A stretch of DNA of 64,000 nucleotides from NCBI RefSeq assembly GCF_916619195.1, contig NZ_CAKAKL010000001.1, positions 1,054,001 through 1,118,000 on the forward strand, read 5' to 3'. The stretch is from Inquilinus sp. Marseille-Q2685 (GTDB taxonomy: Bacteria > Pseudomonadota > Alphaproteobacteria > DSM-16000 > Inquilinaceae). The notes beneath the pieces were generated by a model that was not told the origin of the DNA, did no database searches, and saw only the letters and a program-made list of their open reading frames with translations. The position numbers and the translations under genes are program-made. Shown here piece by piece: positions 9,513 to 53,669 of this stretch. How positions within the stretch are numbered: the first letter of the stretch is position 1; each line of letters starts with the position of its first letter.

Positions 9513-9563
9513 TTCGGCAACCACCAGGGCACCCCGCCCGGCGTGCTCGCGCGTGACCACGAC

Positions 9564-9733
9564 CGACGGCAGGTCTCCTGGCTTGCGGGTCACGGCCTCT
9601 CCGCCGCCTTCCCGGGCCCCGAGGGGCCCAGTGGCCTGATGGCGGAGCGCTCGCCGCTCACAGTTGCGGGGGCAGCCGCAGCATTGGGCCGAGGCCCGCA
9701 CTGCGTTCCCATTTGATCCCGAAGGAACCGTCG
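9564..9733 (-). promoter_or_regulatory. cobalamin (adenosylcobalamin) riboswitch
   Basis: Read on the minus strand the segment holds the diagnostic conserved blocks in order: GGTTCC, AAATGGGAACGC, the core GCTGCCCCCGCAACTGT, the B12-box AGGCCACTG, GGGAAGGCGGC and AAGCCAGGAGACCTGCC. P1 closes by CGACGG (9728-9733) with CCGTCG (9564-9569). It controls btuB-btuF-btuC-btuD and should shut the operon when B12 is plentiful. The aptamer begins just 9 nt after the stop of the upstream LysR gene. Confidence 0.96.
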
Positions 9734-9741
9734 CGGCGAAG

Positions 9742-10767
9742 CTAGTGGGCCGCCGGCCGCGCCGTCAACAGCGCATCGAGGCCGAGCGCGGCGGCATTGG
9801 CGCCGGAATCCCGATAGGGCGGCAGCCGGTCCTCCTCGCGCAGCTCGCTGTCGCAGATCGCCACCATCCGCGGCACCCAGCGGACGACGTGGTCGACCAG
9901 GGCGCGCACCGCCGGCACCAAGCCGCGGCGCGAGGCGAACACCGCCTGCACCTCGCCCTCCGGCATACGCCAGTCCAGCAGCACATGCTCCAGCAGCCCG
10001 GCCTGCACCGCCGGCCGGCAGATATAGTCCGGCAGCAGCGCGGCGCCGAGCCCGTCGATCGCGGCCTGGCGCAGGGTGAACATGTCGTCGCTGGCCAGCC
10101 GCGGCACATGCGGCACCGACTGGGTGGCCCCGGCGGCGTCGGCCAGGGTCCAGACATGGCGGCCGTCGGCGCGATGCAGGTCGAGCGTGCCGAGGCGGAT
10201 CAGGTCGACCGGCTCCACCGGCCGGCCGACGCGGTCCAGCAGGTCCGGCGCGGCCACCACCACGGCCCGGCTGTGGGCCAGCACCCGCACCACCACGTCC
10301 GAGGGCTCGGTCGGCGGCCGGCGCACGCGGAAGGCGAGGTCGACCCGCTCCTCGATCACGTCGACGCGGCGGCCGGTCAGCTCCATCGAGATCCGCACCG
10401 CCGGATGGTCGGCCAGGAAGCTGTTGATCAGCGGCGCGATCATGGTCTGCGCCAGGATGTGCGGGCAGGTGACGCGCACCAGGCCGCTCGGCTCCGACCG
10501 CGCCTGGGCCACCGCCTGCTCCGCCGCCTCGGCCTCGGCCAGCAGCGCCTCGCAATGGCGCAGGAAGGTCTCGCCGACATCGGTCAGCGACAGCCGGCGG
10601 GTGGAGCGCTGCAGCAGCCGCACGCCCAGCTCCTCCTCCAGCGCCGCGATCCGGCGGCTCAGCCGCGACTTGGGCAGGCCCAGCGCCCGGCCGGCGGCGG
10701 TGAAGCCGCCCAGCTGCGCCACCTTGGCGAAAAGGCGGAGGTCGTTGAGGTCGAGCATGGCTTTCAT
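9742..10767 (-). CDS. LysR-family transcriptional regulator
   Basis: 341 aa. Typical N-terminal winged helix (DLNDLRLFAKVAQLGGFTAA ... KSRLSRRIAALEEELGV, about residues 5-65) and a periplasmic-binding-like effector domain (about 92-300). It is divergent from the FMN azoreductase gene, the usual LysR target layout, with a candidate operator ACGGA-N9-TCCGT between them. The C-terminal 20-30 residues are longer than in most relatives. Its 3' end abuts the B12 riboswitch, so the promoter of the btu operon either lies inside this gene or is shared with it. Confidence 0.88.
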   Translation of the reverse strand: MKAMLDLNDLRLFAKVAQLGGFTAAGRALGLPKSRLSRRIAALEEELGVRLLQRSTRRLSLTDVGETFLRHCEALLAEAEAAEQAVAQARSEPSGLVRVTCPHILAQTMIAPLINSFLADHPAVRISMELTGRRVDVIEERVDLAFRVRRPPTEPSDVVVRVLAHSRAVVVAAPDLLDRVGRPVEPVDLIRLGTLDLHRADGRHVWTLADAAGATQSVPHVPRLASDDMFTLRQAAIDGLGAALLPDYICRPAVQAGLLEHVLLDWRMPEGEVQAVFASRRGLVPAVRALVDHVVRWVPRMVAICDSELREEDRLPPYRDSGANAAALGLDALLTARPAAH

Positions 10768-29362: not shown

Positions 29363-29507
29363 TGAGGCCGTTTTGAAACCCGCCGCGACGAGTCAGCTGG
29401 CGTGGTTTTCGAGAACCGGAGCGCAGCGGACGTTCAAGTCCGTGAGCACCGGAAGCGCAGAAAACCGCGTCAGATGGCCGCCGCAGTGGAGTTTCGGGAC
29501 GGCCTCA
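29363..29507 (+). repeat. dispersed hairpin element, copy 1 of 4
   Basis: 145 bp. Core GAGAACCGGAGCGCAGCGGA ... GTCCGTGAGCACCGGAAGCG is shared with 41221, 44004 and 47450. Terminal arms TGAGGCCGT-N3-GAAAC (from 29363) and the complement ending ACGGCCTCA (29499-29507) pair across the element. Its last three bases are the stop codon of the minus-strand antiporter gene. Confidence 0.8.
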
Positions 29508-41220: not shown

Positions 41221-41367
41221 GAACGTTCAAAAAAAACGCTGGCGCGAGTCGGCTGGTGGTGGGTCCGAGAACCGGTGCGCAGCGGATATGAGGTCCGCGA
41301 ACGCCGGAAGCTTCGAGGCCGCCGCCGGTCGGCCGCGCCAGTTTGCGTTCCAGATGGGTTTCCGTTC
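41221..41367 (+). repeat. dispersed hairpin element, copy 2 of 4
   Basis: 147 bp, the most diverged copy. Core GAGAACCGGTGCGCAGCGGA ... GGTCCGCGAACGCCGGAAGC; terminal arms GAACG...AACGC at the left and GCGTT...CGTTC at the right still pair. Ends 30 bp before the start of the 41397 gene and just upstream of its ribosome site. Confidence 0.7.
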
Positions 41368-43840: not shown

Positions 43841-44003
43841 GCCTGGGTTCCGCTCCGAACGTCCCTGTCCCGCCGGCCGCCCGCATTGGTGCGGTGCAGC
43901 AAAGAGGTCGAACGATAGTGATGTCCGACAGAGCTTGTCAACGCGACTGCCGCCGGCGCAAGCATCTTGCCCAAGCTCTGGGCAGATCGGCTCGAAGCCC
44001 GTG

Positions 44004-44141
44004 CGAGAGCGCGCCTGATGCGAGCCGGATGGCGGTGGTTTCGAGAACCGGAGCGCAGCGGACATGAGGGTCCGTGAGCACCGGAAGCGCAGAAACCGCC
44101 GTCAGGCGGCCGCAGCAGGTGCGTTATCGCGCGGGCGCTCA
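44004..44141 (+). repeat. dispersed hairpin element, copy 3 of 4
   Basis: 138 bp. Core GAGAACCGGAGCGCAGCGGA ... GTCCGTGAGCACCGGAAGCG, closing arms GAGAGCGCGC and GCGCGGGCGCTC. Lies in the 298-bp gap upstream of hbd and ends in the stop codon (TCA) of the PduO gene. Confidence 0.8.
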
Positions 44142-46290: not shown

Positions 46291-47190
46291 ATGAGCCTGC
46301 TCGACCGAATCCGCACCTGCACCGCCCATGATCCCGCCCGGCTGCGTCCGTGGCGGATCGGCGACGCTGTCGCCGGCTGGGTCACCCCGCCCGTGGCCGA
46401 CCTGCTCGACCGGCGGCCCGGGCCGCTGCGGCCGGACGGGCGCGGCTGGCGGCTGGACGGGCGCGGCTGGCGGCTGGACGAGCGCCTGTCCGGGCCCGAG
46501 GCGCGGGCCGAGGCGCTGGAGGAGGTCACCGACCGGCTGATCGAGGCCGGGCTGGTGCGCAAGCGCCGGAACGAGCGCTATCCGGTGCTGGCCGAATGGG
46601 GCGCGCCGCTTCTGGCCACGGTCGATCGCGGCGCCGCCGTGGCGCTGGGCATCAAGTCCTTCGGCATCCATCTCAACGGCCTGGTCGAGGCGCCGGACGG
46701 CCCGCTGCTGTGGATCGCGAAGCGCGCGGCCGACCGGGCGCTGGCGCCCGGCAAGCTCGACAACATCGTCGCCGGCGGCCAGCCGGACGGGCTGAGCCTG
46801 GCCGAGAACGTGGTCAAGGAATGCGCCGAGGAAGCCGCGATCCCGCCGGAGCTGGCACGGCAGGCGGTGCCGACCGGCGCCATCACCTACATGATGGAGA
46901 CGGCCGAGGGCCTGCGCCGGGACACGCTGTTCGTCTACGACCTGGCGCTGGCGCCCGGCTTCGCGCCGCGCAACACCGACGGCGAGGTCGAAAGCTTCGA
47001 GCGCTGGCCGCTGGCGACGGTGCTGGAGCGGGTGCGCGACACCGAGGACTTCAAGTTCAACGTCGCCCTGGTGATCATCGATCTGGCGATCCGGCGCGGG
47101 GTCGTGGGGCCGGACATGCCGGATTATCTGGCGCTGTGCCGCGGCCTGCGCGAGCCTACGGATCCGCCCTCCGGCGGCGGCGCCCGCTGA
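46291..47190 (+). CDS. Nudix hydrolase with N-terminal DUF4743-like domain
   Basis: 299 aa. N-terminal alpha/beta domain (about 1-105) as in eukaryote-like thiamine-pyrophosphokinase-associated Nudix proteins, then a Nudix domain with the box GGQPDG-x8-KECAEEAAI near residues 160-185. Likely hydrolyses a nucleotide or thiamine-type diphosphate. A 21-bp tandem duplication (46435-46476) adds DGRGWRL twice at residues 49-62. Divergent from the Pro/Ala-rich gene. Confidence 0.85.
   Translation: MSLLDRIRTCTAHDPARLRPWRIGDAVAGWVTPPVADLLDRRPGPLRPDGRGWRLDGRGWRLDERLSGPEARAEALEEVTDRLIEAGLVRKRRNERYPVLAEWGAPLLATVDRGAAVALGIKSFGIHLNGLVEAPDGPLLWIAKRAADRALAPGKLDNIVAGGQPDGLSLAENVVKECAEEAAIPPELARQAVPTGAITYMMETAEGLRRDTLFVYDLALAPGFAPRNTDGEVESFERWPLATVLERVRDTEDFKFNVALVIIDLAIRRGVVGPDMPDYLALCRGLREPTDPPSGGGAR
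46435..46476 (+). repeat. 21-bp tandem duplication inside Nudix gene
   Basis: GACGGGCGCGGCTGGCGGCT begins each of two perfect 21-bp units, giving DGRGWRL-DGRGWRL followed by a partial third unit DERL. In frame, so it does not break the gene. Confidence 0.9.
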
Positions 47191-47246: not shown

Positions 47247-47441
47247 ATGCGATTCCTGCCGCTCGCCCTCGCCCTGGCCCTTCCGGTTGCCGCCTGCGGC
47301 GGCGGCAGCCACACGCCGCCGCCCGGCCGCGCCGGCGCGACGACGGGGCAGGAGCTGATCGACCTGGACAACGCCTATCGCCAGGGCGCGATCACCCAGG
47401 ACGAGTACGAAGAGCAGCGCGAGAAGATCCTGGACCGATAG
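47247..47441 (+). CDS. small SHOCT-domain lipoprotein
   Basis: 64 aa. Signal peptide with lipobox LPVAAC (Cys17), a Gly/Pro linker, then the SHOCT-like helix pair LIDLDNAYRQGAITQDEYEE. SHOCT domains mediate oligomerisation or regulate partner proteins. Its stop is 9 bp before the hairpin element. ATG start; few alternatives. Confidence 0.75.
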   Translation: MRFLPLALALALPVAACGGGSHTPPPGRAGATTGQELIDLDNAYRQGAITQDEYEEQREKILDR

Positions 47442-47449
47442 GCGGCGTC

Positions 47450-47594
47450 AGAGACCGTCTGGAAATGCGCTGGCGTGAGTCGGCTGGCGGTGGTTTCGAG
47501 AACCGGCGCGCAGCGGACGTTATAGTCCGTGAGCACCGGAAGCGCAGAAACCGCCGTCAGGTGGCCGCGCCAGTAGCATTTGCAGACGGTCTCT
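47450..47594 (+). repeat. dispersed hairpin element, copy 4 of 4 (best preserved ends)
   Basis: 145 bp between the convergent SHOCT and GNAT genes. Outer arms AGAGACCGTCT (47450-47460) and AGACGGTCTCT (47584-47594) are perfect 11-bp complements; inner arms CTGGCG / CGCCAG and GGCGGTGGTTTC / GAAACCGCCGTC also pair. Ends inside the GNAT stop codon. Confidence 0.85.
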
Positions 47595-48054
47595 ACAGCC
47601 GCCCGCGATAGACGATGAATCCCGAGCGGTCGGCCACATTTTCGTAGAGCCGCATCGCGGTCTGGTTGGTCTCGTGCGTCTGCCAGTAGACGCGGGTGAC
47701 GCCGGCGGCCCTGGCCTGTTCGTACACGCCTTCGATCAGCGCCTTGCCGATGCCCCGGCCGCGCGCCGCCGCGCTGGTGAACAGGTCCTGCAGATAGCAG
47801 GTCGGGCCCAGCATGGTGGTGCTGCGGTGGAACAGGTAATGGGTCAGGCCCAGCAACTGCCCGTCGACCTCCGCCACCAGCGCATGCACCGGCTCATAGG
47901 CGTCGAAGAAGCGCGCCCAGGTGGCCCGCGTGATCTCGGCGGGCAGCGCGGTCTCACCGACGCGGCCGTAGAACTCGTTGTAGCCGTCCCACAGCGGCAG
48001 CCACTGGTCGAAATCTGTCGGTCGGACGAAGCGGATCGTCGGTGCGGCGGTCAT
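47593..48054 (-). CDS. GNAT acetyltransferase
   Basis: 153 aa. GNAT fold with LYLQDLFT-like beta4 (CYLQDLFT), the acetyl-CoA P-loop RGRGIGKALIE and the C-terminal helix NQTAMRLYENVA. N-terminal RPTDFDQWLPLWDGYNEFYG fits the aminoglycoside or amino-acid acetyltransferase groups with a wide aromatic pocket; substrate unknown. ATG at 48054. The stop codon falls in the hairpin element. Confidence 0.88.
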   Translation of the reverse strand: MTAAPTIRFVRPTDFDQWLPLWDGYNEFYGRVGETALPAEITRATWARFFDAYEPVHALVAEVDGQLLGLTHYLFHRSTTMLGPTCYLQDLFTSAAARGRGIGKALIEGVYEQARAAGVTRVYWQTHETNQTAMRLYENVADRSGFIVYRGRL

Positions 48055-53582: not shown

Positions 53583-53669
53583 GCGGGCGTGGCGGAATTG
53601 GCAGACGCGCTGGACTCAAAATCCAGTTCTGGTGACAGAGTGTCGGTTCGACCCCGACCGCCCGCACCA
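53583..53669 (+). tRNA. tRNA-Leu (anticodon CAA)
   Basis: 87 nt with encoded CCA. Acceptor GCGGGCG / CGCCCGC, anticodon arm CTGGA-CTCAAAA-TCCAG giving anticodon CAA, long variable arm (class II), T arm GTCGG-TTCGACC-CCGAC. Reads UUG. Confidence 0.97.

Follow-up and report, generated by a model that had tools for sequence, protein, structure and literature searches.

Integron attC sites are variable in sequence and share a conserved, strand-specific asymmetric hairpin that lies directly behind a gene with its folding strand antisense to that gene; they carry conserved core sites at both ends and are served by an integrase. Among the palindromic repeats of alphaproteobacteria, Bru-RS1 and Bru-RS2 of Brucella are presented in passages of three reports as repeats of 103-106 bp occurring in tens of copies (PMC2266754, PMC10800456, PMC2267715). 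The GTAG/CGTC-tagged REP elements, in the words of a passage of PMC3733652, are extragenic palindromes of 20-40 bp that bear the tag at one end and are common in alphaproteobacteria, and in passages of PMC5082802 Br-REP1 and Br-REP2 of Bradyrhizobium are repeats of 3' regions, one of them lying in overlapping 3' UTRs of convergent genes.

Here we describe an element of Inquilinus sp. Marseille-Q2685 found in four copies in the window (the whole stretch of 64,000 nucleotides that was analysed). It is a short mobile DNA hairpin, dispersed in many alphaproteobacterial genomes and mostly located right behind the stop codons of genes, and it appears to be a non-autonomous, MITE-like element of about 143-145 bp. 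The initial annotation of this DNA had overlooked that a stop codon abuts the element, that its orientation is one-sided, that an insertion sequence (IS) resembles it at the ends, that the core is widespread and that one strand is favoured.

Results

Copies and anatomy of the element

The four copies listed in the initial annotation all exist (Table 1), and the complementarity claimed for the arms within each of them holds for three, the outer arms of copy 41221 having ceased to pair well. The arms of the copies at 29363 and 47450 differ in sequence and each set stays complementary, as had been noted, but the ends assigned to the fourth copy (44004-44141) had to be revised on both sides; the last three bases, 44139-44141, are the stop codon of the right-hand gene. 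Copy 47450 as given folds at -104.6 kcal/mol, and together with 10-nt flanks at -120.2 kcal/mol, 13.5 standard deviations below dinucleotide shuffles (z -13.5). Elements of the genus start near GAGACCGTTTGGAAATGC and end with its complement. In their centre, two direct GAGNACCGGA(A)GCGCAG copies, a repeat recognised by eye, are opposed in the hairpin and produce asymmetric internal loops; of the 115 genus copies, 104 retain both core halves and 82 have a 2-nt bulge in the 3' arm. The core of ~50 nt is found elsewhere in alphaproteobacteria behind different arms, and the columns that do not vary in the alignment lie at the apex.

Table 1. Coordinates of the element copies in the window and of adjoining features.
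Feature	Position	Strand	Remark
Copy 47450, as first annotated	47450..47594	+	core strand +; empty site in two sister species
Copy 47450, 5' arm	47451..47497	+	terminal GAGACCGTCTGG similar to resident IS ends
Copy 47450, core	47498..47547	+	GAGAACCGG..GCGCAG - hairpin - GTCCGTGAGCACCGGAAGCGCAG; two direct GAGNACCGGA(A)GCGCAG copies facing (repeat by eye)
Copy 47450, 3' arm	47548..47593	+	complement of 5' arm (folding)
TCA, left target copy at 47450	47448..47450		empty sites in sister species
TAG stop, right-hand gene of copy 47450	47593..47595	-	frame open 696 nt; one base from element end
TAG stop, left-hand frame of copy 47450	47439..47441	+	frame open 1107 nt
Copy 2	29364..29506	+	stop of right-hand - gene at 29505-29507, formed with the element's GA
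Copy 3	41221..41367	+	decayed, outer arms unpaired; right-hand gene called on +, contrary to docking rule
Copy 4	43996..44138 (approximate)	+	right-hand - gene has its stop at 44139-44141

That the element was not recognised as a named family from its sequence agrees with our searches: in the whole window no Rfam family reached its gathering threshold on the element, and at E values up to 5 ten loci gave a single overlap, mir-981 on L056, with 17.3 bits against a threshold of 51. No description of the element was found among the matches listed in searches of the open-access literature or in passages of open-access articles (PMC2267715, PMC2266754, PMC10800456, PMC5082802, PMC12306157, PMC3733652, PMC10969869), and an older name may exist; the core letters used as a text query gave, judged by title, no relevant report among the matches listed. 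Elsewhere in the window, Rfam identified a cobalamin riboswitch (9551-9746, - strand, 115.6 bits) and a tRNA gene (53583-53666, + strand, 57.4 bits).

Distribution in the genus, the family and the class

A count of copies genome-wide and in relatives, suggested as a check when the element was first noticed, gave 50 core-pattern matches in the own genome, 33 forward and 17 reverse, so that the uniform orientation reported for the four copies is true inside the window but not of the genome. A similarity search of the same genome found at least 40 places at 84-100% identity (40 of 87 candidates scored), plus four second-strand matches. The other five genomes of the genus contained 68, 38, 17, 27 and 24 core matches with a slightly different pattern. 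The element was present in 6/6 genomes of the genus and in 0/11 of other genera in the family, and the core pattern read backwards had no match in the own genome and class sample, in four Mesorhizobium genomes or in the five other genus genomes, both of which argue for an occurrence beyond chance.

Of 385 genomes sampled from the class, 8 contained the core, the own genome counted; in one class-level genome the core matches were weak. Since the search patterns need near-exact cores, remote members are undercounted. Plasmids carry cores flanked by other arms in Bosea, Phyllobacterium, Sphingobium, Shinella, Ensifer and Agrobacterium/Allorhizobium, and in at least 119 stretches of named genomes, including Mesorhizobium, Devosia, Ochrobactrum, Novosphingobium, Stappia and Asticcacaulis, a taxon list that is a lower bound as the scan covered the GTAC core variant only. 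Four Mesorhizobium genomes carried 10, 43, 39 and 33 exact cores. In this Mesorhizobium type (type A), the tips differ between places around GGTGTGTTGAGATTCA; the tip duplexes have energies between -10.7 and -43.0 kcal/mol, pairing being good in most and poor in a few (51 pairs among the matches listed), and a GAG/ATC mismatch is retained in 40 of 45 elements. Phages gave no match in 50,697 records at E 1e-5. A 1.9-Mb genome (G161; L065, L072, L075, L081 and L084) contained 30 core matches in elements with the ends GAGGCCATTTCAAAAC; ten of its cores among the matches listed are nearly identical, possibly through a recent expansion. Divergent relatives with AT-richer arms and the same hairpin fold were seen in G026 (L042, L048 and L054).

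Covariation and strand polarity of the hairpin

A lack of covariation in copies outside the window had been named as grounds for rejecting the initial reading, but covariation was present when diverse elements were aligned. In alignment A1, which comprises 87 of 104 diverse elements (the other 17, being second copies, truncated or rearranged, were left out by eye), 20 of 26 pairs showed double changes that keep the pair, and 92.1% of the pair cells were standard; shuffled alignments reached 78.9% and slid ones no more than 43.0%. Both sides had changed in 303 cells versus 77.5 in shuffles, and helices 1, 2 and 4, which lie inside the tips, covaried as well. One G.U pair was invariant (87/87); as the non-genus elements had been found by core patterns, invariance of the core is partly built in among them, the outer stems lying outside the patterns. 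Across all 104 elements, 91.4% of the cells were standard, double changes were found in 19 of 24 pairs, and 352 cells had changed on both sides (97.2 when shuffled). Arms paired better with their own partner than with those of foreign elements, falling below the 5% quantile of mismatched partners in 62/104 (outer arms) and 52/104 (middle arms). In the orthologous pair L047/L055, compensated and uncompensated differences, scored by eye, are both present. Stems beyond the core covary and the core keeps its asymmetric internal loops. A hairpin that is conserved among copies at unrelated sites points most simply to a need during propagation, on one strand.

The mismatches of the hairpin are polarised such that the core strand folds better. 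At the Watson-Crick consensus columns of the 115 genus copies, 199 G.T stood against 43 A.C mismatches on the core strand, and in the 45 type-A elements, i.e. those with both anchors from 124 core matches among the matches listed, the ratio was 94 to 28; in the 104 diverse elements it was 129 to 30. With the pair set predicted from the opposite strand, the lean was weaker (54 vs 28 in the genus, 45 vs 22 in type A). The fold energy was lower on the core strand in 57 of 57 rows, a set that includes one place twice. As G.T and A.C cells share ancestry and are not independent, p values overstate the polarity, and the stronger argument is the common direction of the lean in the two groups and with the two pair sets. 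Strand-biased mutation may be an alternative source of the polarity. The initial annotation had taken compensatory change as a sign of selection on a folded strand, a view in line with both the covariation and the G.T/A.C polarity.

Docking at stop codons

In 104 of the 115 genus copies, stop codons fall on one or both ends of the element: on the 3' end only in 84, on the 5' end only in 12 and on both in 8, leaving 11 with none. When stops of frames no shorter than 240 nt are counted, the 3' end is overlapped in 92/115 copies and the 5' end in 20/115; the background, taken from offsets more than 9 nt away, averages 0.67 and 0.84 per offset. Among the 92, the element completes the stop in 35, with a G in 19 and with GA in 16; at docking sites the stop is retained through the duplication or through the terminal G/GA of the element. 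Relative to the gene whose stop it adjoins, the core strand is mostly antisense and, for this reason, an RNA of the favoured strand is putative. In the window, three of the four copies follow this docking rule, the exception being 41221. Copies that would place the favoured strand in the mRNA right after a stop are rare, and one-sidedness was greater among copies without identical flanking 3-mers (50 vs 3) than among those with them (34 vs 9; Fisher p 0.03), which favours loss after insertion; insertion preference may also be a source of the orientation.

The same arrangement was seen beyond the genus. In named genomes, a home-made gene caller placed the right-hand neighbour on the opposite strand in 87/105 elements (114 of 119 loci used, GC above 0.56), and the deposited annotation of plasmids did so in 13 of 17 distinct loci (L347 and L349 counted once; L060 is without annotation). 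Judged by stops alone in 109 elements, the right-hand peak, with 62 stops, lies 50-52 nt behind the core and is accompanied by smaller clusters of 17 at 39-41 and of 14 at 30 (within a full-length arm), and the left-hand peak at 58-60 holds 16; in wider windows a stop lay to the right in 71, to the left in 36, on both sides in 24 and on neither in 26. Over 800 kb of this genome, neighbouring genes form 338 co-directional, 114 convergent and 107 divergent pairs, a background against which convergent sites are at most mildly enriched.

Docking counts were obtained with a second home-made caller and a caller-free stop-codon scan. A first caller was discarded as it chose antisense frames that contradict known reading frames; the second missed the left frame at 47450 and ended the left gene at 47190. 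Replication direction was rejected as a cause of the orientation, 14 versus 11 elements lying on the GC-skew strands (25 elements of the own genome on two contigs with weak skew).

Mobility, empty sites and a resident insertion sequence

The same genome carries four copies of an 896-bp IS5-type insertion sequence, identical two by two in the comparison made, whose transposase frame of 276 aa contains DUF4096 and DDE_Tnp_1 and which we take to belong to the IS1031-type group of the IS5 family. The IS ends GAGTCCGTTTGGAAACGG/GAGCCTGTTTGGAAACAG differ from the element end GAGACCGTTTGGAAATGC by 3 and 5 mismatches in 18 (genus elements only), so that within the genus the terminal repeats match those of a full-length resident IS, as in MITEs. 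Three of the four IS copies have identical TNA flanks on both sides, the fourth TGA and TAA.

Empty sites were found in sister species. At the 47450 site, G005 and G004 are empty and read through TCA-CAGCC; the duplication is imperfect here since the right side reads TACAGCC, and the right-hand stop is TGA in the empty sites and TAG in the occupied one. At the L002 place, G000 has TCA-element-TCAG, G005 and G003 have a single CTCAG, and G001 and G002 carry other inserts; several further base differences to the left of the element count against this empty site. At the L009 place, G000 has TGA-element-TGAG, G003 and G001 have a single TGAG and G002 agrees on the left side. Empty sites thus reveal a 3-bp TNA duplication at C-TNA-G, as expected of a MITE, at two loci (TCA or TGA), and an imperfect one at 47450. 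Of the 115 genus copies, 47 have the same 3-mer on both sides, versus 24.4 for shuffled partners (maximum 34); the two 3-mers differ in 68, which counts against duplication. Together, empty sites, target duplications and the match of its ends make the genus element a MITE in the usual sense, and the MITE-like nature proposed in the initial annotation is borne out by these sites and by the TNA flanks of the IS copies. A single orthologous pair was present among the 57 rows compared (56 distinct places, one of them occurring twice), which makes high turnover seem likely.

Outside the genus, two Mesorhizobium genomes with 39 and 33 cores had no DUF4096 match, which counts against the same helper, and PF13340 matches were found in the other two of the four Mesorhizobium genomes. 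In those with matches, 6 of 15 loci had a motif 4 mismatches from the type-A end, in a fixed place and without an inverted partner, and none of the 15 PF13340 loci had matching Mesorhizobium-type ends on both sides.

Other palindromic repeats (TGCCGGGCTTGACCCGGCA..., CGTCATTGCGAG...) occupy L227 of G003, orthologous to the 47450 place, and L296 and L297, orthologous to the L002 place. As sister species carry repeats resembling CGTC-type REPs there, the same 3' intergenic sites look like they accept several kinds of repeats.

Discussion

We consider it probable that the element is MITE-like and moved in trans by an IS of the resident type, with a strand-specific fold needed for propagation and loss of wrongly oriented copies. 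The transposase of the resident IS type would act on the element in trans, and the core strand would have to fold, as single-stranded DNA or as RNA, for the element to propagate. Such a need could explain how the fold is inherited through copies at unrelated sites. Copies that place the strongly folding strand in the mRNA directly behind a stop codon would be lost more often.

A wider version of this reading, which we hold only tentatively, is that of a mobile family common to the Alphaproteobacteria whose substrate would be a strand-specific single-stranded hairpin. The core would be recognised, the tips would be exchanged or drift to fit the resident transposase, and insertion or survival would be linked to stop codons, the folding strand lying on the gene's template side; the logic would resemble that of attC or REP systems, in an element unrelated to them.

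The orientation and position of the elements and the stronger fold of the core strand could also be those of a one-way insulator kept by the host, in which the RNA fold of the core strand would stop convergent or antisense transcripts before they reach the 3' end of the abutting gene and the opposite strand, with its A.C gaps, would let the gene's own transcript pass. This is unlikely, as none of 115 copies has a T tract (6 of 8 within 16 nt) behind the end of the core strand and 3 have one behind that of the other strand, which also makes a standard intrinsic terminator unlikely, and as one orthologous pair in 57 rows indicates conservation between copies and not of sites. An ordinary MITE, in which the covariation of the tips would reflect both ends tracking a changing transposase specificity, would account for the resemblance of the genus ends to the resident IS and for arm tips in some other taxa that resemble IS5-type ends; we regard it as distinctly unlikely because the covariation extends to stems inside the tips and because the core stays the same as the tips change. 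Template switching, a known process at imperfect palindromes, could copy arm onto arm and yield covariation by mutation only, in agreement with outer arms that vary by place and mostly still match. It is very unlikely to suffice, however, since asymmetries beside covarying pairs persist (the GAG/ATC mismatch in 40/45 type-A elements, the bulge in 82/115 and the unequal core halves in 104/115 copies) and since it predicts neither the G.T/A.C polarity nor the one-sided docking. An immobile structured RNA gene or 3' UTR motif of the conventional kind, to which the covariation, the conserved internal loops and the invariant G.U pair (87/87) would be suited, is hardly credible in view of the empty sites, the duplications and the high copy number.

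The element offers many independent insertions in which strand-specific selection can be read. It makes directly testable why palindromic repeats gather behind genes, whether a folded single strand can be required by an element with DDE-type duplications, and in what way mobile DNA that keeps or supplies a stop codon spares its target. A covariance model of the core could also help to annotate alphaproteobacterial genomes.

With regard to known systems, the element is an extragenic palindromic repeat like the GTAG/CGTC-tagged REPs but, at ~143-145 bp and with the ends GAGACC/GGTCTC or type A, lies outside them as the cited passage defines them. With Br-REP1 and Br-REP2 it shares a location in 3' regions, but their consensus, in the passages cited for them, is shorter and different. 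Like Bru-RS1 and Bru-RS2, it is an alphaproteobacterial palindromic repeat in tens of copies, and its family also occurs in Ochrobactrum/Brucella records; it differs from them in the length given in those passages, and may or may not be related to them. MITEs of IS5-family IS1031-type elements share with it the short length, the terminal inverted repeats like those of a resident IS and the TNA duplication, whereas the present element is one covarying hairpin throughout, has a core common to several orders, shows strand polarity and docks one-sidedly at stop codons. By analogy, it may be likened to attC in having a variable sequence and a conserved strand-specific hairpin with asymmetric features behind a gene, the folding strand being antisense to that gene, but in contrast to attC it is conserved at the apex and not at the ends, occurs as dispersed single copies and is flanked by target duplications.
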